Below are positions 459 through 26,154 of a DNA stretch of 64,000 nt, in pieces; the stretch's first letter is position 1; each line of letters begins with the position of its first letter. The stretch spans positions 1 to 64,000 of the IMG/VR virus record IMGVR_UViG_3300032313_000518; one strand, 5' to 3'. Made by a program: the position numbers and the translations under genes. The notes below the pieces were generated by a model. It was not told the origin of the DNA and did no database searches. It saw only the letters and a list, made by a program, of their open reading frames with translations. This DNA is from a virus.

Positions 459-490
459 CTTGTTTATATCAGATTTTTTGCTTACCTTTA
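459..490 (+). promoter_or_regulatory. early-type phage promoter P1
   Basis: CTTG at 459-462, 20 bases, then TACCTTTA at 483-490. This has the spacing of the Bacteroidota primary promoter, with TACCTTTA in place of TAnnTTTG. A leader with GAGAGACAGTTCTC (501-514) and AACCCCC (523-529) leads to the start at 536. Confidence 0.75.
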
Positions 491-535
491 TTAAGTGAGA
501 GAGAGACAGTTCTCCTCCTATTAACCCCCTTTGAT

Positions 536-742
536 ATGTATATTCCTAATTTGTCTTCTATGAGTGTTGTTGAGTATGTTGACTTCTTAGAGACTCGTTC
601 TCTTCATATGGGTATCGATGCTTTTGACTTGAATATTGAGTATGGTATCACTATGGGTATTATTAGTGATGAGAGATATGAAAGGGCTAAAGGTGAGTTA
701 CTTCGTAGATGGGCCAAAGGAGAAGTCTTTGGACATTCATAA
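536..742 (+). CDS. small protein of the EYVxF family, 68 aa
   Basis: First gene behind promoter P1, with the AACCCCC element 6 bases before ATG. The core EYVDFLETR followed by EYGITMGIISDERYERA recurs in altered form in the proteins at 2116-2367 and 10020-10211, so these are paralogues. It is likely a small helical cytoplasmic protein; no known domain is recognised. The early promoter suggests a role soon after infection, but that is inference. Confidence 0.65.
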   Translation: MYIPNLSSMSVVEYVDFLETRSLHMGIDAFDLNIEYGITMGIISDERYERAKGELLRRWAKGEVFGHS

Positions 743-791
743 GATATAGATTTGTTTGTTTTTTTGAGTTAATGATTTCGCCATTTTGTTT

Positions 792-820
792 AAACCCCTC
801 CGGTACTGCTGGTGGGGTTT
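792..820 (+). terminator. probable terminator hairpin
   Basis: AAACCCC (792-798) pairs with GGGGTTT (814-820), with a 15-base loop that can itself pair CC with GG. It follows the 536-742 gene and precedes promoter P2. The tail after the stem is only moderately T-rich. A second palindrome, CGGTAGCTACCG, follows at about 838-849. Confidence 0.45.
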
Positions 821-893
821 GTTGTATGTGGAGGCCCCGGTAGCTACCGCAAAATAAATAATTGAAAAAAAAGCAAAAATAATTGTTAAAAGG

Positions 894-925
894 CTTGTTT
901 ATATCATAACTTTTACTTACCTTTA
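894..925 (+). promoter_or_regulatory. early-type phage promoter P2
   Basis: CTTG at 894-897, 20 bases, TACCTTTA at 918-925. The same leader hairpin sequence GAGAGACAGTTCTC follows at 936-949 and AACCCCCC at 957-964, five bases before the ATG at 970. Confidence 0.75.
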
Positions 926-969
926 TTATATGTGAGAGAGACAGTTCTCCACTTAAAACCCCCCTTATT

Positions 970-1557
970 ATGGCTTCTGCTAAAAACACTACGAAATTTA
1001 TGTTAATGGGTATCACTTACGAATTACCCTCTGCTTGTTTAAGAACTACCAACTATTGGGGTGAGGCTCGTACCAACCCTATTATCACTATTGGGCGTAA
1101 GGAAGTTCCTCTGATGTTCAAACAATTTATGAAAGTTAAATATCCTAATATGTTAGTGTGGGGTAAATCCTCTACCTTCGCTAATGGTTCATCTTCTGAC
1201 TTGTATGCTTGTAACGCTGATGGTTCGGAGTTGGAATGGAGTTCTGAAGAGTATAAAGATATTTCTTCATTCTGTAATATGTTCAAAGGTGGACACTACG
1301 ATGGTATGCATGATTGTTATGAGTACGCTGAGAATGGTAAGAGTGATAACGGAACTGAATTAGAGTTCAACGCTAAGTATGTTTCCTTTAATGGTAAAGC
1401 CCCCTTCGGTACTTGGCCTGAAGCATTACGTTCTCTAAAGGGTATGTTGGCTGGAGAATATGTGTGGGGTGTGTTGACTGTGGAGAAAGCAATTGAGAAG
1501 TTAAAAGGATATTCCTACACCGAAGCTACCATCGCCAAAGCGGTGGCTAGCTTGTAA
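970..1557 (+). CDS. LPD29-like protein, 195 aa
   Basis: Residues about 45-125 resemble large polyvalent protein-associated domain 29: a stretch like FMKVKYPNMLVWGKSSTF with a following GSSSDL, then FKGGHYDGMHDCYEY. This domain occurs in phage and mobile-element proteins of Bacteroidota; its biochemical role is unknown to me. The C-terminal 45 residues are helical and may form a separate part. It is the first gene behind promoter P2. The assignment is from remembered motif pattern, so moderate. Confidence 0.6.
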   Translation: MASAKNTTKFMLMGITYELPSACLRTTNYWGEARTNPIITIGRKEVPLMFKQFMKVKYPNMLVWGKSSTFANGSSSDLYACNADGSELEWSSEEYKDISSFCNMFKGGHYDGMHDCYEYAENGKSDNGTELEFNAKYVSFNGKAPFGTWPEALRSLKGMLAGEYVWGVLTVEKAIEKLKGYSYTEATIAKAVASL

Positions 1558-1598
1558 TCGGACACTAATAAAAATAAATTTACTTAAAACCCCTATAT

Positions 1599-1796
1599 AT
1601 GAAATACCCCAATGGTTACTTACCTAAAATTCAATACTACACTAAGGAGATAAACGAATTGTCATTCTCCCTTCAGTACGGAAACCCAAAATACATAGGG
1701 GGACTAACCACTAAATTAAACAGCCACCTACGGAAACTGGAATATTTTATCAAAAGACATTGTGAGGAGAGTGGAGGCATTGTGGGTGTGTTGTAG
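1599..1796 (+). CDS. small hypothetical protein, 65 aa
   Basis: Basic, helical-looking protein (KLNSHLRKLEYFIKRH) with no recognised family. AACCCC at 1588-1593 precedes the ATG by five bases, the same arrangement as in neighbouring early genes. It lies 41 bases after the LPD29-like gene with no promoter between them, so the two are probably co-transcribed. Confidence 0.5.
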   Translation: MKYPNGYLPKIQYYTKEINELSFSLQYGNPKYIGGLTTKLNSHLRKLEYFIKRHCEESGGIVGVL

Positions 1797-1925
1797 TACT
1801 CTGCGGAGGCGGCTTGTCCAACACCTCCTACCAGGGGGGGACTGGTTACTTGTAAAAGGTCTTACAACTTTTTTTTGACAGGGGGGCCCTTATCTCCTTT
1901 CGCCCCGAGCCTGGTTTTTTTCTAT
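1797..1925 (+). ncRNA. structured non-coding segment with two tandem terminator-like hairpins
   Basis: No convincing frame lies between 1797 and 2115. The stretch is much more G+C rich than its surroundings and holds several stems in series: GGAGG with CCTCC (about 1805-1828), ACCAG with CTGGT (about 1830-1846), TTGTAA with TTACAA (1850-1867) followed by eight T, and CAGG plus GGGG pairing with CCCC and CCTG (about 1879-1914) followed by seven T. Either it is a structured 3' region ending the 970-1796 unit, or a small RNA with its own terminators. I see no promoter directly in front. Confidence 0.35.
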
Positions 1926-2036
1926 GGGGTTTACTTTTTTTGAGACAGAGTAGACTCTTGGTTTACCCTAAAGGGAAAGGTTTTTAGATAGTACCTATCC
2001 AGCTAACCTATTTAATAAAATAAATTTACCTAAATG

Positions 2037-2068
2037 TTTGGAATTCTCATTTATTTTACTTACCTTTA
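2037..2068 (+). promoter_or_regulatory. early-type phage promoter P3
   Basis: TTTG at 2037-2040, 20 bases, TACCTTTA at 2061-2068. It overlaps the longer open frame that begins at 2038, which shows that the true gene start must lie downstream, at 2116. Confidence 0.7.
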
Positions 2069-2115
2069 ATATGTGGTTGAGAGACAACAAACCTTCCCTC
2101 CCTCCACTCTATGAT

Positions 2116-2367
2116 ATGAAAAATGGATTAGATTTAAAACCATCAACAATTAAACGTCTTTCATTAGAACGTTACGTTGAGTTTATTGAAAAGAGAGCAA
2201 AAGCATTCCATATAACACCTAAACGAGCCAATTCCGAATACTATATAAATGAAGGTGTGGTTTCCTATGATAGATATGAAGAGGCTATGGAGTTGATTCA
2301 AAAACGGATTAACGTTAGGAACTCAATGGCAATATCGGATTACATTGATTTTCAAATAGGAAGATAA
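2116..2367 (+). CDS. small protein of the EYVxF family, 83 aa
   Basis: The frame is open upstream to 2038, but promoter P3 occupies 2037-2068, so I place the start at ATG 2116 in the GATATG context shared with neighbouring genes. RYVEFIEKR and NSEYYINEGVVSYDRYEEA match the core of the 536-742 protein and, more distantly, 10020-10211. No known domain. Conserved spacing of the aromatic and acidic residues suggests a common small fold. Confidence 0.65.
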   Translation: MKNGLDLKPSTIKRLSLERYVEFIEKRAKAFHITPKRANSEYYINEGVVSYDRYEEAMELIQKRINVRNSMAISDYIDFQIGR

Positions 2368-2372
2368 AAGAT

Positions 2373-2492
2373 ATGAACAAAGAAATGGATTTTGTATTAA
2401 AGGTAAATGGGCAATACCTCATACTAACATCTCTTCAATATGAGAAGTGGTTGATGTATGGGACATTACCAAAAGAACAAATTAACAAATAG
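2373..2492 (+). CDS. small hypothetical protein, 39 aa
   Basis: Starts at ATG 2373 in an AAAGATATG context five bases behind the previous stop and ends with TAG at 2490-2492. The product contains QYLILTSLQYEKWLMYGTLP and has no recognised domain. Its tight spacing and shared start context support it as a real gene of the same operon. Confidence 0.5.
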   Translation: MNKEMDFVLKVNGQYLILTSLQYEKWLMYGTLPKEQINK

Positions 2493-2505
2493 ATATGAAT
2501 AATAC

Positions 2506-2606
2506 AGTCAGGTGGCGGAATTGGTAGACGCATAAGACATTACATATATGTCGAAGAACAGGTCACTAGGTGATACTTCATACAGGTTCGAGTCCTGTCC
2601 TGACTA
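2506..2606 (+). tRNA. tRNA-like sequence with aberrant anticodon region (Leu/Ser class)
   Basis: Acceptor arms AGTCAGG (2506-2512) and CCTGACT (2599-2605) pair perfectly. A D-arm GCGGAATTGGTAGACGC and a T-arm ACAGG-TTCGAGT-CCTGT are textbook, as in type II tRNA-Leu. The centre is not: after the D-arm come four extra bases, then GACAT and ATGTC enclosing TACATAT, which would put CAT at the anticodon position but lacks U33. A long variable region contains TCAC-TAG-GTGA. Total 101 bases, with no encoded CCA. It may be a decayed, inserted or tRNA-mimicking RNA. Confidence 0.5.
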
Positions 2607-2701
2607 CGAGGTTCAATCCATACATGGGTTTTGTGTATTGTATGGTGTGAGGTTTAGTAACACGTAAGTGCCCTTCTATATTAGATAAAAATGCACGCTA
2701 T

Positions 2702-2814
2702 AGTCAGGTGGCGGAATTGGTAAGACGCTGCTCGTAGAGAGTTGATTGGTTCTGTTCGATTCAGACGTTGGAAATGGTGTTCCACAAATATAGGTTCGAA
2801 TCCTGTCCTGACTA
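2702..2814 (+). tRNA. second tRNA-like sequence with an enlarged anticodon region
   Basis: Nearly the same 5' end (AGTCAGG, TGGCGGAATTGGTAAGACGC) and 3' end (AGG-TTCGAAT-CCTGT, CCTGACT) as the copy at 2506-2606, so the two are duplicates. The variable arm TGGAA-ATGGTG-TTCCA is good, but about 40 bases lie between D-stem and variable arm where about 18 are normal. One candidate anticodon arm is TCTG-TTCGATT-CAGA (anticodon CGA, Ser), leaving about 20 unexplained bases. Length 113. The amino-acid identity cannot be settled by eye. Confidence 0.45.
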
Positions 2815-2833
2815 CAATTAATAAATAAAAGAT

Positions 2834-3070
2834 ATGAATACATTAGAAATAGTTGGTTACTTCGCAATGGGTATGAGTGTACTCTCCTTTGCGTTCTCTA
2901 AACAAAAGCTGGTTCGGATAGTAAACTTCTTTGCCTGCTTAGTTTGGGTTTGGTATGGGTTTCTAATTCAGAATAACCCTACTATCATTGTAAACGTTAT
3001 GGTATCGATGGTACACCTCTATTGGTTTATTAATCGTTGGTGTAGAATCAGTAAGTTAAATCGTAAATAG
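2834..3070 (+). CDS. small YgjV-like inner-membrane protein, 78 aa
   Basis: Three hydrophobic segments (about residues 5-22, 27-46 and 50-66) separated by short basic turns. The pattern GYFAMGMSVLSFAFSKQKL, then RIVNFFACLVWVWYGF, then NPTIIVNVMV resembles YgjV-type and SemiSWEET-like small membrane proteins that are common in bacteria and occasional in phages. Function of the family is unclear. It heads the run of genes that continues into the MLTI array, four bases before the next start. Confidence 0.65.
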   Translation: MNTLEIVGYFAMGMSVLSFAFSKQKLVRIVNFFACLVWVWYGFLIQNNPTIIVNVMVSMVHLYWFINRWCRISKLNRK

Positions 3071-3073
3071 GAT

Positions 3074-3361
3074 ATGCTAACGATACATAATTACAAAAAG
3101 CTGGAAGGCCAAAAGACCGGAGTAGGTAATTGGTATGTTGGTGCTATCTGGGAACAAAATAAAGAGTATGCAATAAACCTACGCTCACCCGAACACCAAG
3201 AGACTGTATATCTAAGTAGGATTGCTAAAGAATATCCCGATGGTAGGAAGGTGTACCAATACTATGATAGATTGGGTAGTGTTACTCTACGGAGTGTAAC
3301 CATTGATTTTATAAAAACTCAATCTAACTTATTACGTTCACTTAAATCATTTTGTTTATAG
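3074..3361 (+). CDS. MLTI-array paralogue 1, 95 aa
   Basis: First of eight neighbouring genes whose products begin MLTI, MLRI or MKLTI followed by a basic N-terminus (here MLTIHNYKKLEG). Shared plan: a short N-terminal strand, a central tryptophan or aromatic strand region (NWYVGAIWEQ), a YxLxx-type strand, then a C-terminal helix ending in hydrophobic residues. The ATGCTAACGATA start sequence is conserved at DNA level among members. No signal peptide, no known domain. Divergence is high, so the copies are old or fast-evolving. Confidence 0.65.
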   Translation: MLTIHNYKKLEGQKTGVGNWYVGAIWEQNKEYAINLRSPEHQETVYLSRIAKEYPDGRKVYQYYDRLGSVTLRSVTIDFIKTQSNLLRSLKSFCL

Positions 3362-3365
3362 GATT

Positions 3366-3656
3366 ATGCTAACGATACGGAACTACCATAGATTATGTGA
3401 TAAACCCATTGGAGGGGATGGATGGAAAGTCCTATTTTGTGCGGAGGGGGATAACCACTACGAAATTAAATTAGTGTGTGTGGGTAAAACATCCGTAACT
3501 ATATTTTTGGAACGTAACGCCGAAAGGGCAAACGATGGTAGGATGGCATATATGTTTAAGGATAGGGATGGTGAGGGAGATAGTGTGGGTGTAACTGCGG
3601 ATTGGATTGCGGATATGGATAACATGCTAAAGATATTAGACGGATTTACATTTTAA
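3366..3656 (+). CDS. MLTI-array paralogue 2, 96 aa
   Basis: Begins MLTIRNYHRLCDKP and is five bases from paralogue 1, its closest relative in start sequence (ATGCTAACGATAC) and in layout: DGWKVLF, then YEIKLV, VTIFLERNAER, and a C-terminal helix IADMDNMLKILDGF. Residues 50-65 match the YLSRIAKEYPDGRK region of paralogue 1. Unknown function. Confidence 0.65.
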   Translation: MLTIRNYHRLCDKPIGGDGWKVLFCAEGDNHYEIKLVCVGKTSVTIFLERNAERANDGRMAYMFKDRDGEGDSVGVTADWIADMDNMLKILDGFTF

Positions 3657-3659
3657 GAT

Positions 3660-4181
3660 ATGAAACAACGAAAGAAGAGTTTTAAAGAGTTATTGGATTA
3701 CATATGTGAATCCAAAATCATGTTGGAACAAAACCCAAATCTATATAGGTTTATTATAGATGGGGTTCGAAACAACATATTCTATATGACATCTACCAAT
3801 GAGTTCTTTACCGGAAAATATTCCTTTGAAGCCTTTGACTGGATACGAAGTGGGGGTAAGATATCGGAGTTGTGTAAGGAGCATCACTATTCTCTAAAGC
3901 GATTGTGTACCGAAATTATGTATTCAAACCTAAGTAGGGATGTGATATCGGATATGATTAAATCCAAAGGAACATTTAACCTAACTACAAAGGATGAGAA
4001 TCATATACTAAAAAGAAATAGACAATCTTATGAAAAGAGCGAAATTACTATAAATACATACAATGGTTGGTTGTGTAAGGAATTGGGTTCATATCCATCA
4101 ACCGAAACGGAGTATGTAGATTCCATACCTGAAATGTATGTTGATTGGATTGAAGAAAAACGAGATACAAGATTCTGGTAA
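3660..4181 (+). CDS. hypothetical protein inside the MLTI array, 173 aa
   Basis: This gene interrupts the array and is not an obvious member: it starts MKQRKKSFKELLDY, is mostly helical and basic, and lacks the MLTI start. I recognise no domain. It is tightly coupled, three bases behind paralogue 2 and one base before paralogue 3 at 4183. A long open frame that starts at 4138 within this gene belongs to paralogue 3 with a wrong start. Confidence 0.6.
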   Translation: MKQRKKSFKELLDYICESKIMLEQNPNLYRFIIDGVRNNIFYMTSTNEFFTGKYSFEAFDWIRSGGKISELCKEHHYSLKRLCTEIMYSNLSRDVISDMIKSKGTFNLTTKDENHILKRNRQSYEKSEITINTYNGWLCKELGSYPSTETEYVDSIPEMYVDWIEEKRDTRFW

Positions 4182-4182
4182 C

Positions 4183-4500
4183 ATGCTAACCATAAAGAAC
4201 TACAAAAAGATAAAGGATACCGAATTTAGTGTTGGCTTCACCGGTTGGGTGGTAGCCGATATTAGAGAAGAACCTGCATTCTATAAGATAGGGTTTTTCC
4301 CTAAAGTAGATGGGGTATTCGCAATCCATAAGGTAGAGTGGTTATACATATGGAGAAACCTAAGTGAGAATGGGTATGAGTATCAAATTGATTGTATAGG
4401 TTTACCTCTTAGGAAATGGGCGATTCATTATCAATACTTAAAAGACCCAAAAGAATTGATTTACTTTCTTTCAAAACGAATCTTATATAAGTTATGCTAA
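4183..4500 (+). CDS. MLTI-array paralogue 3, 105 aa
   Basis: I choose ATG 4183 (MLTIKNYKKIKD), not the in-frame ATG at 4138, because the conserved ATGCTAACCATA start lies here and the earlier start would overlap the upstream gene. Layout follows the family: GFTGWVVADI, YKIGFF, EWLYIWRNL, then a C-terminal helical end. Its stop TAA is embedded in the next start (ATGCTAA), an overlap created by the conserved array start itself. Confidence 0.65.
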   Translation: MLTIKNYKKIKDTEFSVGFTGWVVADIREEPAFYKIGFFPKVDGVFAIHKVEWLYIWRNLSENGYEYQIDCIGLPLRKWAIHYQYLKDPKELIYFLSKRILYKLC

Positions 4501-4844
4501 GGATACAAAATAAGAATAAGTTGGTTGGGGAATCGTTGGTGGTTACGGATGCGGATGGTAATCTAATTGTGTGGATAATTGAAGGAGTGCATGATTATGG
4601 ACCCGATGGTCATTATCAAATCCTATTAAGAACATCCGGCCCACAAGCGAATAAGGTATTCATACTATCCAAGGAGGAGGGGTTTGTGGAGGGAAACGCT
4701 AACTATAAGATTAAGGATGCATTTGAACCATTCAATTCGGTTTGGGTCAATTACTCTAACATAGCTAATATATCATCTATGGTAAGAACATTAAGACGAA
4801 TTATATCACATGCTAACAATCCAAAACGTTCGAAGAGATATTGA
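4494..4844 (+). CDS. MLTI-array paralogue 4, 116 aa
   Basis: Begins MLRIQNKNKLVG; ATG overlaps the previous stop by seven bases. Core strands include LIVWIIEGV and YQILLRT, with KVFILSKEEG matching the VYLSRIAKE position of paralogue 1, and a C-terminal helix ISSMVRTLRRII. The last 12 codons are shared out of frame with the beginning of the next paralogue. Confidence 0.6.
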   Translation: MLRIQNKNKLVGESLVVTDADGNLIVWIIEGVHDYGPDGHYQILLRTSGPQANKVFILSKEEGFVEGNANYKIKDAFEPFNSVWVNYSNIANISSMVRTLRRIISHANNPKRSKRY

Positions 4845-5148
4845 TTATAAGGATGGGTATCAAATTGATGAATTCCAATTGATAGATGGGGGATTATCCG
4901 GCGCTTCTTCTGGGAATTTGGAGAATCCATTCTACACTTTCTATTGGTCTATGTGGGATGATAAGAGACGATTTAAGGTGGTAGTGAAGAGGGAGCCGAT
5001 AGATGAGGTGTACTATCATCTTTGGATTGAGGATTTAAGAATGGATGTTAGGATTCACAATGTTCGGGTTAAGAGTAGCTTGTTTACGGATAGGGAAAGG
5101 TTCTATAAGTGGATGGTGGATAGGATTAGTGATTCACTATCAAATTAA
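4810..5148 (+). CDS. MLTI-array paralogue 5, 112 aa
   Basis: Begins MLTIQNVRRDID at the conserved ATGCTAACAAT and overlaps paralogue 4 by 35 bases, the largest overlap in the array. The C-terminal helix (ERFYKWMVDRISDSL) fits the family plan. Function unknown. Confidence 0.6.
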   Translation: MLTIQNVRRDIDYKDGYQIDEFQLIDGGLSGASSGNLENPFYTFYWSMWDDKRRFKVVVKREPIDEVYYHLWIEDLRMDVRIHNVRVKSSLFTDRERFYKWMVDRISDSLSN

Positions 5149-5210
5149 ACGTTTACCAAAAAAATCTTAAATTCGACACGAAGGAGAGTGGGTGATATAA
5201 TTAAACTGAT

Positions 5211-5555
5211 ATGCTAACAATAAAGAACATTAAATCACTAAAAGGAACTCAATGTAATGGGTGGATAATTAAATTTATTAGTGAAGGTATCTATTTATAC
5301 GATGATGATGATTTGAACATTATTCAAACGGAATACTATTCGATTACATTTGTATCGGGGTTGGGTTCGAACATAGGTAGGATACTCATTGGTAGAGAAT
5401 ACGATACAGCGTATAAAACACAATATAGGTATATACTTTATTTGAATCAAAAGAAGTTCGATACCGGTGGGATAAGTAAATATGGGTTGCAAGATAAGGA
5501 TGGGTTTATCCAATCCGTAGTAGATACATTGGATTATCAATTAAAAAATAAATAA
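5211..5555 (+). CDS. MLTI-array paralogue 6, 114 aa
   Basis: Begins MLTIKNIKSLKGTQ with ATGCTAACAATAAA. The order NGWIIKFI, YYSITFVSG, RILIGREYD and final helix FIQSVVDTLDYQL follows the family. A 62-base gap without a clear promoter separates it from paralogue 5, the widest break within the array. Confidence 0.65.
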   Translation: MLTIKNIKSLKGTQCNGWIIKFISEGIYLYDDDDLNIIQTEYYSITFVSGLGSNIGRILIGREYDTAYKTQYRYILYLNQKKFDTGGISKYGLQDKDGFIQSVVDTLDYQLKNK

Positions 5556-5558
5556 GAT

Positions 5559-5684
5559 ATGAAACCATTTTTAAACAATTTACTATTACTATCATCTATT
5601 ACCTTTATATGGGTAATGGTATTTCCATTTTGGGTTATTAAAGAAATTATATTTAGAATTAAAAACAATAAACATACGCTATGA
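5559..5684 (+). CDS. small single-span membrane protein, 41 aa
   Basis: Starts at ATG 5559 (AAGATATG context) and ends with TGA at 5682-5684, overlapping the next ATG by four bases. Residues about 5-32 are strongly hydrophobic (NNLLLLSSITFIWVMVF), followed by a basic tail, suggesting an inner-membrane anchor with a cytoplasmic tail. No family recognised. Confidence 0.5.
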   Translation: MKPFLNNLLLLSSITFIWVMVFPFWVIKEIIFRIKNNKHTL

Positions 5685-5944
5685 AAGAATTTAAAGATTT
5701 AGAATTTAAGGAATTACCCGATGGTAGTGGTATATACTCCCGCACTATGTTTAAAAACGGATTTGGTTCAAGTGTAATAAGACACAAATACTCATATGGA
5801 GGAAAGGATGGATTGTATGAGTTAGCAGTATTGGATACCGATGGTGAATTACATTACGATAATCCAGTTGCCGAAGGTGATGTACATGGTTATTTAACTG
5901 AAGATGATGTTACCGAATTACTAAAGAGAATCCAGCTACTATAA
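5681..5944 (+). CDS. small hypothetical protein, 87 aa
   Basis: Acidic, strand-rich protein (MKEFKDLEFKELPDG) with an ATGA overlap to the membrane peptide before it. Ends with a helix (EDDVTELLKRIQLL). It is not an MLTI member and no domain is recognised, but the tight spacing on both sides makes it part of the same operon. Confidence 0.6.
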   Translation: MKEFKDLEFKELPDGSGIYSRTMFKNGFGSSVIRHKYSYGGKDGLYELAVLDTDGELHYDNPVAEGDVHGYLTEDDVTELLKRIQLL

Positions 5945-5945
5945 A

Positions 5946-6326
5946 ATGCTAACAATACAAAACTTTGAGGAACGATTGACTCCTTTAATTTTCAAAGCCA
6001 GCTTTTTAGGTTGGTACATAATGGATGCAGTTGAAATATACAATGATTACTATCTTATACAATTACAAAAGAATTCGACAGATGATTTTAATTGGGTTGC
6101 TCTTTGGTTAGATAAAGAGGTTGATACCGATTTTCCAAATGATGATGATTCCGATGGTATGTATAAACTTAAATTTGTAGGTGAAGATGGGATAGTTATA
6201 TACGAACATTGGTTATCTCATAAATGGTTAAAGAAAACAACCGCCATCGGATTTATGAATAAGATGGCTAATATTATTGAGAGTTTTGTAATTAAACATC
6301 CAAACAATAAATGGCCAGTAGTATGA
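5946..6326 (+). CDS. MLTI-array paralogue 7, 126 aa
   Basis: The longest member, beginning MLTIQNFEERLT one base behind the previous stop. It carries an acidic insertion (DFPNDDDSDG, about residues 62-71) between strands shared with the other copies (LGWYIMDAV, YYLIQLQ, NWVALWLDKE) and ends with the family helix. The stop overlaps the start of paralogue 8. Confidence 0.6.
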   Translation: MLTIQNFEERLTPLIFKASFLGWYIMDAVEIYNDYYLIQLQKNSTDDFNWVALWLDKEVDTDFPNDDDSDGMYKLKFVGEDGIVIYEHWLSHKWLKKTTAIGFMNKMANIIESFVIKHPNNKWPVV

Positions 6327-6610
6327 AACTAACTATAAAGAACTACGATAAGATTATAGGTTGTGTTGTGGGTAAGTACCAAGTTGCACAAGTCAGACAA
6401 TTGAGTAAGTTGTATGAGATTGCCTTTAGAGGTAAGAATCGAAGATACCATAAGATTGTAACCATATATAGAGAACCATTGGAGGAATACGAACAATCAG
6501 TTTACAAAGTAGTATGTAGTGGTAGGTGGACAACTATTTGGAATATTACATTAAAGGATAAGATTGCTACCTTACAATATATTTCACATTGGCTTGAAAA
6601 TTTATTGTAA
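6323..6610 (+). CDS. MLTI-array paralogue 8 (MKLTI variant), 95 aa
   Basis: I place the start at ATG 6323 (MKLTIKNYDKII), overlapping the previous TGA, although an in-frame ATG exists at 6311. It has the family strands (KYQVAQV, YEIAFRG, HKIVTIYREP) and the C-terminal helix YISHWLENLL. It is the last copy; promoter P4 follows directly, so the array ends here. Confidence 0.65.
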   Translation: MKLTIKNYDKIIGCVVGKYQVAQVRQLSKLYEIAFRGKNRRYHKIVTIYREPLEEYEQSVYKVVCSGRWTTIWNITLKDKIATLQYISHWLENLL

Positions 6611-6614
6611 ATAA

Positions 6615-6646
6615 TTAGGAAATGTGGGTTTTTTTACTTACCTTTA
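6615..6646 (+). promoter_or_regulatory. early-type phage promoter P4
   Basis: TTAG at 6615-6618, 20 bases, TACCTTTA at 6639-6646, then AACCCCC at 6659-6665 and ATG at 6672. It drives the RNA-repair genes. Confidence 0.7.
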
Positions 6647-6671
6647 TTCTATAATTAAAACCCCCAATAGT

Positions 6672-7334
6672 ATGAAGATTATTTTGAATAAAGGTCAAAA
6701 GTTGTGGTTCACTTCCGATACCCACTTTAATCACTCAAATATTTGTAGAGGCACTACCGAATGGGATAAGAGCAAACCGAATCACTTTAGAGATTTCTAT
6801 ACTTTGGGTGAGATGAACGATAGGTTAGTTGCTGGTATCAATGCAGCAGTTGGTGAGAACGATATTTTATTCCACTTAGGAGATTGGTCTTTTGGTGGGT
6901 TCGAATCTATTAGAGAGTTTCGTAGCAGATTGAATTGTAAGAACATCCATTTAGTATTAGGAAACCACGACCACCACATTGGAAGAAATAAAGATGGGGT
7001 GCAGGATTGTTTCATTAGTGTAAACCATTTAGTTAATTTAGTTGTTAAGTGGAATATAGGAACTCTAAATCAAAAGGAAGCACAATTTGTGTTGATGCAC
7101 TTTCCAATTGCTAGTTGGGAAAATTTAGGTAAAGGTGTTATTCACTTACATGGACACGTTCACTTACCTAACCATCGTAGAGTTGGTAGTGGTAAAATTA
7201 TGGATGTGGGAGTTGATGGAAATGGGTTGAATCCAATCAGTTTAGAGGAGGTATTGAGTATTATGGAGAAACAACCAATCGGTAGTATGATGCCAAATGA
7301 CCACCACACTATTGTAGAAAATTATTTAAGATAA
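6672..7334 (+). CDS. calcineurin-like metallophosphoesterase, 220 aa
   Basis: A two-metal phosphoesterase with all hallmark motifs in order: SDTHFNH (about residues 15-21), HLGDWSFGG, LGNHDHH and HLHGHVHLPNH. The frame is open further upstream to 6624, but promoter P4 and the AACCCCC element place the start at 6672. The next two genes are a polynucleotide-kinase-like protein and an RNA ligase, so it may act as the end-healing phosphatase of an RNA-repair set, as the metallophosphoesterase domain does in clostridial Pnkp. That role is inferred from context; other substrates are possible. Confidence 0.9.
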   Translation: MKIILNKGQKLWFTSDTHFNHSNICRGTTEWDKSKPNHFRDFYTLGEMNDRLVAGINAAVGENDILFHLGDWSFGGFESIREFRSRLNCKNIHLVLGNHDHHIGRNKDGVQDCFISVNHLVNLVVKWNIGTLNQKEAQFVLMHFPIASWENLGKGVIHLHGHVHLPNHRRVGSGKIMDVGVDGNGLNPISLEEVLSIMEKQPIGSMMPNDHHTIVENYLR

Positions 7335-7338
7335 AATT

Positions 7339-7755
7339 ATGATACCAAAAATATTAACATTAGTAAGAGGATTGCCAGGTAGTGGTAAATCAACATTCGC
7401 CAATACTATTACAAATAAATTTTCAATATGTGAAGCTGATAAGTTTTTTTATGATAAGGAAGGTAACTATAACTTTGATGGTTCTAAATTGAGGCAAGCG
7501 CATGAATGGTGTAGAAACCAAGTTGAGACTCGTATGAAAGATAACCAATTAAATCCTCAATTTTATCCAGAGATTGTAGTATCAAATACATTTACGCAAG
7601 AGTGGGAAATGGAAGCATACTATAAGTTAGCAGAACAATACGGATATAAAGTATTCAGTATTATTGTTGAGAATAGACATGGTGGTGTGAATGAGCACGG
7701 AGTACCTGCTGATAAGTTAGAACAAATGCGTAATAGATTTGAAGTAAAATTATGA
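7339..7755 (+). CDS. polynucleotide-kinase-like P-loop protein, 138 aa
   Basis: Walker A GLPGSGKS at residues 11-18, followed by an EADKFFYD segment and the RHGGVNEHGVPADKLEQMRNRFE lid region (quoted in part: RHGGVNEHGVP, EQMRNRFE) typical of 5'-polynucleotide kinases of the T4 Pnk and N4BP2 type. It is only the kinase domain; the HAD phosphatase half of T4 Pnk is absent. ATGA overlap with the RNA ligase gene supports a joint repair task: phosphorylating 5' ends of broken RNA for sealing. Confidence 0.8.
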   Translation: MIPKILTLVRGLPGSGKSTFANTITNKFSICEADKFFYDKEGNYNFDGSKLRQAHEWCRNQVETRMKDNQLNPQFYPEIVVSNTFTQEWEMEAYYKLAEQYGYKVFSIIVENRHGGVNEHGVPADKLEQMRNRFEVKL

Positions 7756-8924
7756 AATACGATTTAGAAGTTTTATCGGATTATATCAATAGAGGTTTGG
7801 TGATTAAACAAAATCATCCTACACTACCTTTATCTATATACAACTATTCCCGTGAATGCCAATACAATGGTATGTGGGATGATATTACTTTGAATTGCAG
7901 AGGATTGGTTTTGGATAACGAAGGTAATGTTGTTGCTAAACCTTTTCCAAAGTTCTTTAACTACGAAGAGCACAAACCAGAGGATATCCCAAATGAAAAC
8001 TTTGAGGTTTATGAGAAGATGGATGGTTCATTGGGTATATTCTTTTACTATGAGGAAGAGTTGAGTGATGAAAGAAGATATAACATATGGTTTAATAACA
8101 ATTACGAAACAGGTATGGAAAGGTTCTTTGACCCAAACAACTTACCCAACTTCGATGACCCATACTATGAACCTACACCAAAAATAAAAGGTGAATGGCA
8201 TATGGCAACTCGTGGTTCATTTACTTCCGAACAAGCAATCAAAGGCATGGAGATTGCAAAGAGATACAACTACGATAAGAAATGCGTACCTGGCTACACA
8301 TACCTTTTTGAAATCATTTATCCTGAAAATCGTATAGTTGTGGATTATGGAAAGGAAGAGCGATTGGTATTATTAGGTGTGATGAATCGAAGAGGTGAAG
8401 AGTTTCCTTATGAAGAGCTTGTGGAAGATGGTTGGGATATCGTAATGAAGTATAAGACTTGGGGAGAAGATTGGGAAACTTTGAAAAAAGAAATATCCAA
8501 AGACAATGAAGGATATGTAATTCGTTTTTCAGGCGGTATGCGAATGAAGATTAAAGGTGATGAGTATGTTCGTCTACATAGAATCTTAACTAATTTTTCC
8601 ACCAAAGATATATGGGAACTGTTAAGAAATAACGAACAGTTAGAACCATTTTTGGAAAGAGTACCTGATGAGTTTGATGTTTGGGTAAGGGAAGTTGTTA
8701 GGGATTTACAAACTCAATATAATACCATCTTAAACGATTACCGAACTATTTTATTTAATATATGGCATCCTGATAAGAAGGTATTTGCCGAATACGCTAA
8801 AAGATATCCACACCCATCTTTGTTGTTTGCTTTGTACGATGGTAAGAATGAATCTGCATATGATTACGTTTGGAAAATGATTAAACCAAAGTATGAAAAA
8901 CCTTTCAAAAAAGATGAAAAATAA
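7752..8924 (+). CDS. rnlA: T4 Rnl1-like RNA ligase, 390 aa
   Basis: ATP-dependent RNA ligase of the Rnl1 family. The nucleotidyltransferase motif EKMDGS carries the likely AMP-accepting lysine at residue 89; CRGLVLD precedes it, EGYVIRF (motif IV) and MKIKGDEYVRLH (motif V) follow, then a C-terminal helical domain as in T4 RnlA. Length (390) is close to T4 RnlA (374). It probably seals RNA, in T4 the tRNA cut by host anticodon nucleases; the two tRNA-like sequences upstream make that idea attractive, but no target is shown. Start overlaps the kinase gene by four bases. Confidence 0.92.
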   Translation: MKYDLEVLSDYINRGLVIKQNHPTLPLSIYNYSRECQYNGMWDDITLNCRGLVLDNEGNVVAKPFPKFFNYEEHKPEDIPNENFEVYEKMDGSLGIFFYYEEELSDERRYNIWFNNNYETGMERFFDPNNLPNFDDPYYEPTPKIKGEWHMATRGSFTSEQAIKGMEIAKRYNYDKKCVPGYTYLFEIIYPENRIVVDYGKEERLVLLGVMNRRGEEFPYEELVEDGWDIVMKYKTWGEDWETLKKEISKDNEGYVIRFSGGMRMKIKGDEYVRLHRILTNFSTKDIWELLRNNEQLEPFLERVPDEFDVWVREVVRDLQTQYNTILNDYRTILFNIWHPDKKVFAEYAKRYPHPSLLFALYDGKNESAYDYVWKMIKPKYEKPFKKDEK

Positions 8925-8935
8925 TTGATAAAAAG

Positions 8936-8967
8936 CTTGTATATGTCAATCTTTTTACTTACCTTTA
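8936..8967 (+). promoter_or_regulatory. early-type phage promoter P5
   Basis: CTTG at 8936-8939, 20 bases, TACCTTTA at 8960-8967. It precedes a 21-codon frame and the SWIM-like gene. Confidence 0.7.
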
Positions 8968-8990
8968 CTGTGTACTAAGAGATACACACT

Positions 8991-9056
8991 ATGAAAGTTT
9001 TATTATTTGATTCGGTTTGGTTTGGTTTGAGAGTGTTAAAAATGTTAGGATACTAA
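8991..9056 (+). CDS. possible 21-aa micro-protein or leader peptide
   Basis: ATG at 8991, 24 bases after the promoter element, runs to TAA at 9054-9056 and encodes MKVLLFDSVWFGLRVLKMLG plus Y. It ends 11 bases before the next gene. It is hydrophobic with basic residues. Translation is unproven; it may be a leader peptide for the following gene. Confidence 0.3.
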   Translation: MKVLLFDSVWFGLRVLKMLGY

Positions 9057-9067
9057 ACAATAGACAT

Positions 9068-9250
9068 ATGAAATGGTTTTACAGCGAAATGGGTAGTGTG
9101 AATAAGAAGACTGGAAAGTATAAGCACTATAAAGTAACAGTTGAAGATTGGAAGATTATGGGTTGTAACTGCGAAGCTAGAGATTTTCGTAAATATACAC
9201 CCTGTAAACATATGATTTCAATCCATAATAAGTTAGGACATAGTTTATAA
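9068..9250 (+). CDS. SWIM-like zinc-binding protein, 60 aa
   Basis: Contains CNCEARDFRKYTPCKHM, the CxC...CxH pattern of SWIM zinc fingers, which bind DNA or protein partners. The frame is open to 9017, but I favour ATG 9068 (MKWFYSEMG) because it has the ACATATG context and leaves the 21-codon frame free. Small stand-alone SWIM proteins occur in phages; role unknown. First recognised gene behind promoter P5. Confidence 0.65.
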   Translation: MKWFYSEMGSVNKKTGKYKHYKVTVEDWKIMGCNCEARDFRKYTPCKHMISIHNKLGHSL

Positions 9251-9268
9251 AAAATAATTAAGAAAAAG

Positions 9269-9300
9269 CTTGACATTATCAATTTTTTTGCATACCTTTA
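9269..9300 (+). promoter_or_regulatory. early-type phage promoter P6
   Basis: CTTG at 9269-9272, 20 bases, TACCTTTA at 9293-9300; the gene at 9323 begins 22 bases later without the AACCCC leader. Confidence 0.7.
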
Positions 9301-9322
9301 TTAAGTAATAAATAACAAACAT

Positions 9323-9589
9323 ATGAACATTCAATTCAAAAAACCCAACAAAAATCATCCCCAACCATTTATCCGTCATTCGAACTTTTCGATTATGAAA
9401 GCTGAAACTGAAAAGTATCCCGAAATGGTTGAAATCCTAAGAGGACCTTCTTACGCTAGAAAATTCTTTGGTAAGAAATTCATAAACATTGAATCTGCTA
9501 TCAAAAGTGTAGATTTGATATGTGCAGAACGTATGATTGCAAAGCAGTCAATGGTTGAAACCGAGTCAATAGAGAACGCTTGGTGTTAA
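9323..9589 (+). CDS. hypothetical protein, 88 aa
   Basis: Basic protein starting MNIQFKKPNKNH, with a helical C-terminal half (AIKSVDLICAERMIAKQ). No domain, signal peptide or membrane span. It is a single-gene unit between promoter P6 and the host-type promoter at 9614. Confidence 0.55.
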   Translation: MNIQFKKPNKNHPQPFIRHSNFSIMKAETEKYPEMVEILRGPSYARKFFGKKFINIESAIKSVDLICAERMIAKQSMVETESIENAWC

Positions 9590-9613
9590 ACCTTAAAAAA
9601 AACTTAAAGAATA

Positions 9614-9645
9614 TTAGGATTTTTGATATTTTTTTTGTATATTTG
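9614..9645 (+). promoter_or_regulatory. host-type (Bacteroidota sigma) promoter
   Basis: TTAG at 9614-9617, 20 bases, TATATTTG at 9638-9645: the host TAnnTTTG element, not the TACCTTTA of the surrounding phage promoters. It drives the small lipoprotein. Confidence 0.7.
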
Positions 9646-9680
9646 TATAATTATAATTAATAACCTTAAACAAAAGTAAA

Positions 9681-9845
9681 ATGAAAAAATTATTAGCATT
9701 AGCGTTTATCGCATCTGGATTAGTATTAGCAGCATGTGGTGAATCAAAACAAGAAGTTGCAAGTGATTCGTTAGCAGTTGATACAATTGCAGTTGATAGT
9801 GTAGCAGCAGATTCAGCAGCAGTTGATACAGCAGTTGCAAAGTAA
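9681..9845 (+). CDS. small lipoprotein with Ala/Val/Asp repeats, 54 aa
   Basis: Signal peptide MKKLLALAFIASGLVLAAC with a clear lipobox (LAAC, Cys19), then GESKQE and an imperfect repeat of DS/DT-AVD units (DSLAVDTIAVDSVAADSAAVD). It should be a lipid-anchored envelope protein. Such short Asp/Ala-rich lipoproteins are common in Bacteroidota genomes, so this gene and its host-type promoter look acquired from a host. It stands as its own unit with a terminator. Possible roles are superinfection exclusion or envelope protection, both unproven. Confidence 0.75.
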   Translation: MKKLLALAFIASGLVLAACGESKQEVASDSLAVDTIAVDSVAADSAAVDTAVAK

Positions 9846-9872
9846 AAATTAAATTTTGATTGTGAATAATGG

Positions 9873-9904
9873 AAAGGGATAGACTTTTAGTTTATCCCTT
9901 TTTT
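9873..9904 (+). terminator. intrinsic terminator
   Basis: AAAGGGATA (9873-9881) pairs with TATCCCTTT (about 9893-9901) over an 11-base loop, followed by a T run. It ends the lipoprotein transcript. Confidence 0.75.
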
Positions 9905-9941
9905 GTTGCCTAAAAATAATTTAAAAATATTTTGGTAAAAG

Positions 9942-9973
9942 CTTGTTTATATCGATTTTTTTACTTACCTTTA
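9942..9973 (+). promoter_or_regulatory. early-type phage promoter P7
   Basis: CTTG at 9942-9945, 20 bases, TACCTTTA at 9966-9973. Leader GAGAGACAGTTCTC at 9984-9997 and AACCCC at 10006-10011 match promoters P1 and P2. Confidence 0.75.
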
Positions 9974-10019
9974 TTATATGTGAGAGAGACAGTTCTCTTC
10001 CTTTTAACCCCACATTGAT

Positions 10020-10211
10020 ATGAATTATCCAAAAAAACTTAATGAGTATGTTCACTTCATCACTATCATCTATGGTGGTACAATGCGTAAAGAAGGTATC
10101 ATAGAATGTATTATGGCTAACACTATTGGTTACGCTAATGGATTAGTATCCCGTACTACTTATAGAGGAGCCGAAAAACATTTTGTAAATTTATTAAAAA
10201 ATATTTCGTAA
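10020..10211 (+). CDS. small protein of the EYVxF family, 63 aa
   Basis: NEYVHFITIIYGG and YANGLVSRTTYRGAEKHF align in spacing with the core of the proteins at 536-742 and 2116-2367, so I place it as the most divergent of three paralogues. Behind promoter P7 with the same leader as the 536 gene, which means promoter, leader and gene may have been duplicated together. Function unknown. Confidence 0.6.
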   Translation: MNYPKKLNEYVHFITIIYGGTMRKEGIIECIMANTIGYANGLVSRTTYRGAEKHFVNLLKNIS

Positions 10212-10215
10212 AAGG

Positions 10216-10247
10216 CTTGTTTAATTCAATAATTTTACTTACCTTTA
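10216..10247 (+). promoter_or_regulatory. early-type phage promoter P8
   Basis: CTTG at 10216-10219, 20 bases, TACCTTTA at 10240-10247, starting directly after the previous stop codon. AACCCCCCC at 10281-10289 precedes the ATG at 10296. Confidence 0.75.
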
Positions 10248-13646: not shown

Positions 13647-16600
13647 TTAGTTAAATAGGTATCTTACACCCAATTGAATTTGGTAGCGAGAACCAAATCC
13701 TACGTTATCTCTGAATGAATCAGTAAACGGAACTTTGTTTCTTCCATCCAAATAAGGGAATGAGAAGATTGGTGTTTTACCATCAGTATCCAATTTAACA
13801 AAGTTAAGAGGAGTGATTGTTGTAGGTAATTGTTGAACACCTAATTTGCTACTAATAAAGTTTGTGAAGTTATATACATCAGCAGTAAAACGCAATGTAT
13901 GCTTTATAGCTCCAACTTTAATGTAAACGTCTTGCGTTAAATTCAAATCTAATCTATGAACCCACGGAAGAACCAATGCTTGTCTTTCCGCCATCATACC
14001 TCTACGAGTTGAAAGGTAAGGATTGTTTGAAATGAAAGCATCCAATTGAGACCATAATTCAGCTTGTGTTCTTGTATCAGCTACACCACTTACCGCAGAT
14101 GCATTAGTTAATTTAATTTGAGATGCATCTTTAGGAACGAAGATTATATCGTTACCATTGAAACCATCGTTATTCAAATCACCACCATATGTGTATGAAA
14201 GAGATGCCTGTGGAGCATTTGGTGAAGCCTCATATAATAAACCAATTGAAGTTTTTGTATTCTTAATAAACTCTTTACCATAATTCACACTTGCAATAAT
14301 TCTATGTGGTAAGTAGTTGTTTGAAAAACCTGCTTCAAAGTTGTTAGGGTCAGTACCAGTCGGTCTAGCTCCCCACATTGTAAATGCAGTAGAACCATTG
14401 ATTGTTGCATCTACTGCCGTTTGACGAGTATAAGAAGCGTTTACACCTAAGTTATTGAATTGTCTTTGGATTTGTAATGTTCCAAATAAAGTATGGCCAA
14501 TGTTTGCATTAGTCATATAGATTGCGTTACCAATGTTTGGATTTTGTGGAGTTTGAGCTGCACCAACCGCATCATATACCGAACGTTTAACAAAACGAGT
14601 TCTACCATCACTTAATGTTGTGTTACCCTCCGAAGGTAATGCAACGTTTTGGAAAACAGTAGCGTTGATATTTTGGATATAAGTTCCCTCCGCAGTTACG
14701 GTCCAACCTAATACTTTCTTATCAACTGCTAATGTAGATTTCCAAACCTGTGGGAATTTATAATTAGGGTCAGTTACGTTAAGAGAATATGATTTGGATA
14801 AACCTGGCGTTGGAGTTGGTCTATACTTATCAATATCCGGTGAGAACACATATCCAGTTCCATTTGTAATAGAGCCAAATAATGCCATACCACTATTAGA
14901 TGCCTGATTTGAAATCCATACAAATGGCGGAGGTCCTTGGAATAAACCAGTACCACCTCGTATTTGTAAAGTTTGGTCATCATTCACATCCCAGTTAAAT
15001 CCAACTCTTGGTGATATTTGTAGTGAAGCAGATGGTGCTAAACCTGTGTTTAATTTCGTACCATTATAGAACTTATCTAAACCTGCAACTACTGGATTGA
15101 AAAGGAAGTTATCAGCAAACGAAACATAATCAGCTCTAATACCATATGTTAAAGTTAGATTATCTTTTATTCTAAACTTATCCTGCGCAAATAAACTCAA
15201 CTCCGTATTCTTTGGTCCAACCAAAGGAAACCCACCACTCAATGAATATGATAAATCATAGAATGCTGCTGGTTTTGTTCCTGCTGCCGAAGCGTAGAAA
15301 TCTGCTAAACTATTGAAACGATACGCACCTGCGAATGAAGGTGAGAAACCATTTGAATAAGTTTTGAATGAGTTTTGTGTACCAAATGTAAATTCGTGCT
15401 TACCTTTATATAAGTTGAAAATGTTATTAATTTGGATTACATCACTATTTAATACGTTACCATATGTAAATCTTTCATAACCAAATGTTGTATAAGGTAA
15501 ACCATTACCATCTAAGATATCCACTTGTGGGAAATTACCAACACTTAAAGGTGCTCTATAATCTCTCAATTGAGTATATCCAATTTGTAATTTATTATTT
15601 GCTGAATTAGAGAAACGAGTATTCAATTCACCAATTAAGATATCCGCATCATTGTTGATAACATAACCACTACCAAAGAAAGGCATTGCGGTGTTACCCG
15701 GTCTTCTACCATTTGATGAGTTGATTGAACCACTATTAGATGCTGGGATATCTGCTGAAGAACGTAACATTGTATATTTCAATGAGAACGAATTCTTTGC
15801 ATTAATATTCCAATCCAACTTTGTAGTTAATCTTTGTGATTTAGAACCATACTGATAACCCTGATATGAACCCGGATTATAATTGTATTTATCGATTAAG
15901 AATTTTTGTAAAGCATCTAAATCAGCTGCTTTAGCTTGTGAGATATTGATACCATTGGGATTGTTGTTAGCATCAGATGCTGTCCATTGTGTACCCGGCT
16001 CCATTCTTTCTTCTTGCTCTCCGTTTAGGAAGAAGAACAACTTATCCTTAACAATCGCACCACCTGTGGTGAAACCTTTAAGGTCATATGTAAATGGTTG
16101 TTGTGGTAAAGTGATATCACCCACCTTATAACCTTGTAAATCTTTATTCTTAAAATATTGGTAAACCGAACCAAATGCCTGATTCTTACCACTACGAGTT
16201 ACTGTATTCACCGAGCCACCTGCGAATCCACCATACTTAACATCAAAAGGAGAAACGTTTACTTGAATTTGTTCAATCGCATCCAATGAGATTGGTTGTG
16301 CTCCCGTCTGTCCTCCCAATGTTCCATCACCCAATCCAAATGAGTTATTGAAGTTCGCACCATCCAATGTTACGTTGTTCAATTGAGAACTCATACCGCC
16401 AAACGATAAGTTGTTTTGCGATGGTACTAATTTAACTAAATCTTTCCAACTACGATTTACGTTTGGTACTGATTCGATTAATCTTCTATTGATAATCTCC
16501 TGCGAACCATTACGGCTTGAGTTGAAAACTTTGTTTTGACCTGATACAACTACAACTTCATTTAACGTAGTAGATGATTCCACTAAATTAAAATTAGCTT

Positions 16601-16907
16601 TGTGTGTCTGTCCTAACAATAATGTAATATCATTTTGTGTTTCGGTTTTGTAACCTACAAATGATACTGTCACTACATACGGTCCTCCAATTTTTAAGTT
16701 TGGTAGGTTATATCTTCCATCAGCACGAGTGGTTGTACCATACTTCGTACCGGTTGGTTGATGGGTAGCTTGTACAGTTGCACCTGCAATAGCTTCCTTA
16801 CCTGCCAAAACATTCCCTTGAATTTCTGATGTAGTTTCTTGTGCTTTTGCTACAAATGTTGATACGAATACCAACAAAAGTAACATTAGATTTTTTAACT
16901 TTCTCAT
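13647..16907 (-). CDS. Oar-like TonB-dependent outer-membrane receptor, 1086 aa
   Basis: Complete receptor. Signal peptide MRKLKNLMLLLLVFVSTFVAKAQ (cleavage after AKA), a carboxypeptidase-regulatory-like beta-sandwich (about 27-110: GNVLAGKEAIAGATV, DGRYNLPNL, VSFVGY), a TonB box (NEVVVVSG, about 116-123), a plug (NVTLDGANFNNSFG, IEQIQVNVSPFDVKYGGFAGG) and a barrel of about 800 residues ending in GVRYLFN. Such proteins import large substrates or move proteins across the outer membrane using TonB energy. In a phage genome this is remarkable: a full, uninterrupted host-type receptor, under a host-type promoter with a structured leader. It could supply nutrients, mask or replace the phage receptor, or be a recent host acquisition. 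Confidence 0.93.
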   Translation of the reverse strand: MRKLKNLMLLLLVFVSTFVAKAQETTSEIQGNVLAGKEAIAGATVQATHQPTGTKYGTTTRADGRYNLPNLKIGGPYVVTVSFVGYKTETQNDITLLLGQTHKANFNLVESSTTLNEVVVVSGQNKVFNSSRNGSQEIINRRLIESVPNVNRSWKDLVKLVPSQNNLSFGGMSSQLNNVTLDGANFNNSFGLGDGTLGGQTGAQPISLDAIEQIQVNVSPFDVKYGGFAGGSVNTVTRSGKNQAFGSVYQYFKNKDLQGYKVGDITLPQQPFTYDLKGFTTGGAIVKDKLFFFLNGEQEERMEPGTQWTASDANNNPNGINISQAKAADLDALQKFLIDKYNYNPGSYQGYQYGSKSQRLTTKLDWNINAKNSFSLKYTMLRSSADIPASNSGSINSSNGRRPGNTAMPFFGSGYVINNDADILIGELNTRFSNSANNKLQIGYTQLRDYRAPLSVGNFPQVDILDGNGLPYTTFGYERFTYGNVLNSDVIQINNIFNLYKGKHEFTFGTQNSFKTYSNGFSPSFAGAYRFNSLADFYASAAGTKPAAFYDLSYSLSGGFPLVGPKNTELSLFAQDKFRIKDNLTLTYGIRADYVSFADNFLFNPVVAGLDKFYNGTKLNTGLAPSASLQISPRVGFNWDVNDDQTLQIRGGTGLFQGPPPFVWISNQASNSGMALFGSITNGTGYVFSPDIDKYRPTPTPGLSKSYSLNVTDPNYKFPQVWKSTLAVDKKVLGWTVTAEGTYIQNINATVFQNVALPSEGNTTLSDGRTRFVKRSVYDAVGAAQTPQNPNIGNAIYMTNANIGHTLFGTLQIQRQFNNLGVNASYTRQTAVDATINGSTAFTMWGARPTGTDPNNFEAGFSNNYLPHRIIASVNYGKEFIKNTKTSIGLLYEASPNAPQASLSYTYGGDLNNDGFNGNDIIFVPKDASQIKLTNASAVSGVADTRTQAELWSQLDAFISNNPYLSTRRGMMAERQALVLPWVHRLDLNLTQDVYIKVGAIKHTLRFTADVYNFTNFISSKLGVQQLPTTITPLNFVKLDTDGKTPIFSFPYLDGRNKVPFTDSFRDNVGFGSRYQIQLGVRYLFN

Positions 16908-26068: not shown

Positions 26069-26103
26069 TATATTTATATAGGATGGAGCTGGCCAGCACA
26101 TCC
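26069..26103 (+). promoter_or_regulatory. late-type element TATATTTATA followed by an inverted repeat
   Basis: TATATTTATA at 26069-26078; directly behind it GGATG (26081-26085), the palindrome GCTGGCCAGC (26088-26097) and CATCC (26099-26103) form one nested inverted repeat. It lies in the Hsp20 leader and could be an operator or an RNA hairpin. Confidence 0.55.
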
Positions 26104-26154
26104 TCGTATTATCCAAATGGAAATACAAACTTAACGCTTAAACAAGGTAAAAAA

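Follow-up and report, generated by a model that had tools for sequence, protein, structure and literature searches.

A tandem phage gene array of an apparently undescribed family of small proteins, with a conserved start as the likely joint of cassette gain and loss

The DNA analyzed here is a stretch of 64,000 nucleotides (the window) that makes up the first part of the 110,968-base virus record IMGVR_UViG_3300032313_000518, and it carries at positions 3074 to 6610 a tandem array of eight same-strand (+) genes of 95 to 126 codons (Table 1), which we call the MLTI family after the commonest start of its proteins. On balance, we favor the interpretation that these genes are a cassette array of an undescribed family, that the array changes by start-to-start recombination, and that the products are early, non-enzymatic binding proteins for variable host targets. 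A cassette would begin at the ATG of its own gene and end where the following gene opens with its ATG. Because the starts share 8 to 18 bases of nearly identical DNA (ATGCTAACAATA-like), recombination between two of them, the direction and mechanism of which we infer, would delete, add, or swap whole genes and leave all frames intact. Successive cassettes adjoin closely, tail against head, and at many junctions the stop of the preceding gene lies inside ATGCTAA or forms TAA-N-ATG; the array would most likely act as a changeable stock of early host-takeover or counter-defense binding proteins.

The original prediction, made without database searches, described eight genes of this length with MLTI, MLRI, or MKLTI starts, several of them overlapping. 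The coordinates and starts (six MLTI, one MLRI, and one MKLTI) were verified, as were three overlaps, which measure 7 nucleotides (nt) between the genes starting at 4183 and 4494, 35 nt between those at 4494 and 4810, and 4 nt between those at 5946 and 6323. The list of open reading frames (ORFs) placed the start of member 3 at 4138, and the 15 additional codons overlie the end of the preceding gene. Both of the interspersed non-members are present; one is small, as described, and the other, of 173 residues, is not. Pairwise BLASTP linked just some of the members, and profiles were therefore built. In the leave-out form of these profiles, the first 12 residues were cut from every sequence, BLAST-linked relatives of the query were dropped from the training set, E-values were computed for 1000 sequences, and 2000 shuffles per member served as the control. 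Seven of the eight members scored 22 to 39 bits (E 8e-6 to 6e-11), with none of the 2000 shuffles as high, and the member starting at 4810 was marginal (13.5 bits, E 0.004, one of 2000 shuffles as high). On the basis of these profiles, we conclude that the genes are one family whose ancestry reaches past the start, as is supported strongly for seven members and, for 4810, by the weaker profile score plus the fold order. Common ancestry confined to the first ten residues, the outcome named beforehand as contrary to the prediction, would imply unrelated small early genes with only a start sequence in common, and we regard this as very improbable: some pairs in the window lack a BLASTP match and 4810 is marginal by profile, but the other seven are recognized with their first 12 residues removed, the predicted model of 4810 has the same fold order, and core hydrophobic residues together with R50 and Y62 are conserved far from the start. 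A chance likeness of the starts was likewise ruled out, both by the leave-out profiles and shuffles and by the count of ATGCTAAC at starts.

The start is conserved as DNA. In the window, ATGCTAAC occurs eight times on the two strands together, in comparison to 2.2 expected, and six of these occurrences are at starts of array members. The DNA start that had been claimed for all eight genes is thus exact in six; member 4494 has ATGCTAAG and member 6323 has ATGAAACTAAC. In the loci examined, a few of which are near-duplicates, 87 of the 94 array-strand occurrences of ATGCTAAC are member starts, and the sequence is nearly confined to such sites. The Leu2 codon was CTA in 61 of 78 Met-Leu members of a first set and in 107 of 148 of an enlarged set (72–78%), and the CTA share of internal Leu codons in the same genes was 12%. 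A serious, if less probable, explanation is that the start is kept by translation, through start context and stop-start coupling in a long operon, and that ATG borders merely reflect the survival of whole-gene exchanges. The packing of the junctions is consistent with such coupling (17 overlaps of 7 nt in which ATGNTAA contains the upstream stop, 19 TAA-N-ATG arrangements, and 8 overlaps of 1 nt), and block edges are common at the starts of non-member genes too. However, an upstream frame open for at least 50 codons uses just 16 of the 76 ATGNTAA starts, yet CTA is mostly kept, and one joint between cassettes is a hybrid inside the start.

That joint was found by comparison of closely related records. 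The same locus holds 8 copies in the window, 5 in the sister phage G021, 10 in G001, 7 in G003, and 3 in the partial G002; this copy-number comparison, which had been proposed as a check, and the ancestry past the start bear out the suggestion of repeated duplication. In the alignment of the window with G021, where the flanks of the differences are ∼91 to 96% identical, G021 is without exactly 3074–3365 and 4183–4809, each running from ATG to ATG. Over 8.7 kb, the IMG/VR records L042 and L055 share 99.5% identity; they differ in one cassette, at L042 8704–9034, and the joined start of L055 is a hybrid, with ATGCTAACAATAAAAAAC from the gene missing there and then CAATATAAATTA from the next gene, such that the joint falls inside the first 18 bases of the start. 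The array of G001 has one cassette more, which separates member 1 from member 2 at the same joint, and its homologues of member 3 and member 5 come in the opposite order; G013 and G015 have single cassettes in common that are set beside different neighbors. Over all pairs, left block edges fell ≤15 nt from the ATG in 136 of 195 cases for members and 157 of 366 for other genes, and right block edges fell 0 to 40 nt into the start in 116 of 216 and 80 of 380 cases, respectively, a clear excess at member starts. Because gene borders in general attract edges, the resolved events outweigh the edge statistic. The three resolved differences and the suggestive statistics make it well supported, at the level of sequence comparison, that the shared start is the joint of cassette gain, loss, and shuffling. 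It is possible, although doubtful, that ATGCTAAC(AATA) goes further and is a dedicated exchange joint; selection would then keep identical start DNA for the frame-safe trading of single-gene cassettes, and the array would represent the start-codon-anchored shuffling of a versatile binding fold for host-targeting proteins.

Several points weigh against an array of start-joined cassettes that encode binders of variable targets. Start conservation could serve translation instead, as set out above. The L042 and L055 pair is ∼3% different to the right of the joint, and the event may have been a replacement from another phage, not a simple deletion. Edges gather at the starts of non-member genes as well (43% of left edges); the pattern therefore reflects in part the ordinary survival of gene-border exchanges, and right edges that enter the next start partly follow from the shared start itself. 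The p-value of the CTA test (7e-42) overstates independence, since the members are related. For codons 2 to 4, the likeness of start DNA was 0.81 within a genome versus 0.78 between genomes, with 7 of 300 label shuffles as high, in a comparison that ignores phylogeny; within-genome homogenization of starts is weak and was left out of the argument. A conserved basic N/K/R patch on the proteins could mean one common partner, not many targets.

Structures were predicted for two members. The AlphaFold2 model of 3366, built with 42 family sequences, has a confidence (predicted local distance difference test, pLDDT) of 91 and consists of five strands and a C-terminal helix. The model of 4810, built with only six orthologues, has a pLDDT of 78 and the same element order, with a short helix at residues 7 to 10, five long strands, and a C-terminal helix. 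Residues 1 to 10 of 3366 are modeled at pLDDT 92 as part of the domain, and the N-terminus is of low confidence in the six-sequence model. The family is confidently predicted to have one domain of ∼105 residues, in which the N-terminus carries the motif M-L-x-I-x-N-x-x-K-L and five antiparallel strands are followed by a C-terminal helix, in place of the strand-strand-helix plan first proposed. The basic segment attributed to all members was not uniform: isoelectric points (pI) range from 4.8 to 9.6 among the eight, with K or R at position 9 common in the family, and a DNA-binding role for all members is likewise unsupported.

The conserved positions are L2, I4, N6, K9, L10, Y32, L48, R50, Y62, and core hydrophobics, with Y32, I4, N6, L2, and R50 near-invariant across more than 200 members. 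There is no conserved catalytic set, the conserved polar residues being N6, K9, and R50, and we infer from this residue pattern a binding domain rather than an enzyme. The near-invariant residues would also fit one shared task, in which every member would use N6, K9, Y32, R50, and Y62 to bind a common ligand or hub and the array would amplify or fine-tune that task. We consider this unlikely: members of one genome share 16 to 36% identity, their net charges span −7 to +8, and copy number varies from 5 to more than 30 between phages, unlike dosage. Less probable still is a resemblance to the internal proteins of phage T4, whereby the conserved N-terminus would be a head-packaging tag for injected diverse small proteins and the cargo would diversify. 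The first ∼10 residues are conserved and the remainder diverged, the proteins are small and form an exchangeable set, and one of the T4 proteins, IPI, is an inhibitor of a type IV restriction enzyme (PMC9026906). Against such a tag, the N-terminus of 3366 is modeled within the domain rather than as a removable peptide, albeit at low confidence in 4810; the members are not uniformly basic; the array adjoins RNA-repair genes, not head genes; and CTA is conserved as DNA, which a peptide tag would not need.

The family extends well beyond the window. An iterated search of related IMG/VR phages gave 232 members (215 distinct) in 25 loci, and at one profile threshold the window has 8 members, G001 13, G003 7, G021 7, G015 20, and G013 33. 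A single 101-kb record carries at least 33 members, and the number of related small genes per array in this phage group ranges from 8 to over 30. Pfam, PHROGs, and PADLOC gave no significant family match, just isolated weak matches, each to one member. The family profile had no significant match among PDB sequences (best E 0.21), and a Foldseek fold search found none in PDB (best E 0.27) or among the predicted viral folds of BFVD (best E 0.074). No match at E 0.1 was obtained by tblastn with three members versus 50,697 phage records, a scan of GTDB contigs using one member gave no relative, and the profile did not match Microcystis phage Mel-JY01 over its whole length or an immuto phage over its first 50 kb. 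As far as the searched libraries show, the family appears to be undescribed. Sister phages have another array of MLTI-family genes farther upstream (L045 8541–11386 and L044 4499–6976, with MLTIQN, MKLTIKN, and INIENP types), which falls beyond the left end of the window's record. Mel-JY01 has its own tandem sets of small paralogues (L051 16144–20253, equal to record positions 116144–120253), unrelated by profile. Three tandem paralogues starting MK[AG]PxNF lie directly upstream of the G001 array (L044 13645–14630), and they too were ruled out as family members by profile.

The rapid divergence that had been envisaged holds as turnover and replacement and not for retained copies. Orthologues of the members are 43 to 84% identical to those of G001, in comparison to 93% for the flanking phosphoesterase and kinase. 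The ratio of nonsynonymous to synonymous substitution rates (dN/dS) versus G021 was 0.08 to 0.17 for the retained members with the exception of 3366 (0.85), whose differences cluster in the last third; versus G001 it was 0.15 to 0.52 for members and 0.09 to 0.25 for the flanking phosphoesterase, kinase, and ligase. Across retained members the values thus span 0.08 to 0.85, are mostly below 0.5, and give no sign of gene-wide positive selection. By this measure, purifying selection acts on the retained copies, and the low ratios therefore indicate genes that are maintained and functional but replaced faster than their neighbors.

Table 1. Features of the array and its surroundings (positions in the window; aa, amino acids)
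Feature	Position	Strand	Remarks
Promoter-like repeat TTG, ∼19 nt, TACCTTTA	2038..2068	+	upstream of array; one of 7 exact TTNCTTACCTTTA copies
Member 1	3074..3361	+	95 aa; missing in sister G021 by exact ATG-to-ATG difference (3074-3365)
Member 2	3366..3656	+	96 aa; AlphaFold2 model pLDDT 91, five strands and C-terminal helix
Interspersed non-member	3660..4181	+	173 aa; without significant family match
Member 3	4183..4500	+	105 aa; true start 4183 at ATGCTAAC
Two-cassette segment (members 3 and 4)	4183..4809	+	missing in sister G021; both ends within ATGCTAAC
Member 4	4494..4844	+	116 aa; stop codon of member 3 inside its ATGCTAA start
Member 5	4810..5148	+	112 aa; weakest family membership by sequence
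Member 6	5211..5555	+	114 aa
Possible non-member ORF	5559..5684	+	41 aa, hydrophobic
Interspersed non-member	5681..5944	+	87 aa; PHROG 4074 (unknown function)
Member 7	5946..6326	+	126 aa; acidic, pI 4.8
Member 8	6323..6610	+	95 aa; MKLTI start; basic, pI 9.6
TTACTTACCTTTA element, next copy	6634..6646	+	directly after array, before phosphoesterase
P-loop polynucleotide-kinase-like protein (Pfam AAA_33)	7339..7755	+	downstream neighbor
T4 Rnl1-like RNA ligase (Pfam RNA_lig_T4_1)	7752..8924	+	downstream neighbor

Downstream of the array are genes for a phosphoesterase, a kinase, and a T4 Rnl1-like RNA ligase; in T4, end-healing and ligase enzymes of such kind act against an anticodon nuclease of the host. 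The coding strand has TTNCTTACCTTTA in seven exact copies, all of them within the window's first 10.3 kb (478–10247, +), and they sit inside dispersed repeats of 70 to 115 nt. The Bacteroidota promoter consensus is TTTG/TANNTTTG, to which the TTG-N19-TACCTTTA repeat is close, and in G001 one repeat copy is located just before the array (L044:14648, with the first member at 14680). The dispersed repeats are probable early promoters. Together, the RNA-repair neighbors, promoter-like repeats, pI spread, and purifying selection favor early host-interaction proteins. Counter-defense, to which we give about an even chance, would be the most likely sub-class of function, with takeover of host processes next. 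The inhibition of host defense proteins or toxins suggested in the original prediction would likewise be compatible with this anatomy.

The virus is identified as a myovirus by its baseplate-wedge protein, which shares ∼40% identity with the corresponding proteins of Flavobacterium phage immuto and Microcystis phage Mel-JY01. The relationship of one gene to freshwater Bacteroidota suggests that the host belongs to this phylum. On the strand opposite to the array, the window encodes a full-length TonB-dependent outer-membrane receptor (13647–16907, −; OMP_b-brl_4, CarboxypepD_reg) that is 97 to 98% conserved in the sister phages G001, G004, and G021, 69% in G013, and ∼65% identical to receptors of freshwater Bacteroidetes/Chitinophagaceae metagenome-assembled genomes. 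By these identities, it is a lasting host-type receptor gene borne by the phage. A second TonB-dependent receptor-like protein (43613–46096, +; OMP_b-brl_3, Plug) is followed by a predicted lipoprotein (46093–47295). The phage also encodes a UV-damage endonuclease, UvdE (28187–29077, +), and an Hsp20-type small heat-shock protein (26083–26634, +).

In the open literature, we found no report of the MLTI family, of a start-codon joint, or of a direct precedent for phage paralogue arrays with start joints. The closest mechanism is that of the esaG and tipC tandem immunity-gene arrays of firmicutes, in which non-identical paralogues are gained and lost by recombination between conserved blocks common to all copies (PMC9484751); those are bacterial chromosomal immunity genes, whereas the array described here consists of phage genes of an undescribed family with a short joint at the very gene start. 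The closest phage analogue in logic is the T4 set IPI, IPII, and IPIII, accessory proteins that are small, diverse, and exchangeable and have an N-terminus in common; IPI among them is anti-restriction (PMC9026906). Their N-terminus is a cleaved capsid-targeting peptide, whereas that of the MLTI family is part of the predicted domain; the MLTI proteins, moreover, are not uniformly basic and are present in far larger copy number. Closest in presumed use are the small early genes of archaeal viruses, grouped by regulatory DNA that they share in non-coding or start-proximal positions and proposed to be anti-defense; in those viruses the shared DNA is an upstream promoter, whereas the MLTI genes share coding DNA at their starts and have promoter-like repeats in other places (PMC11065993). 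In temperate phages, relaxed recombination leaves short or divergent homology at the borders of exchanged pieces, a likeness to the exchange proposed here, and phage recombination is shown there to tolerate such homology; that work deals with Rad52-like recombinases (PMC3945230), whereas RecT and ERF recombinases had no match in the eight records searched here and three records, from the more complete sisters G003, G004, and G021, have a RecA-family gene. Integrons likewise hold arrays of single-gene cassettes that change in order and content, but the joints in the MLTI array are the gene starts themselves.

These results add a phage protein family that is undescribed and widely duplicated, has a confidently predicted domain, and lacks a match in the searched libraries. 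They also tie the precise gain and loss of cassettes to a short conserved element in the DNA of the gene start. The shared start offers a simple handle for finding more members, and if the members are counter-defense factors, the arrays would be a ready candidate library against Bacteroidota defenses.

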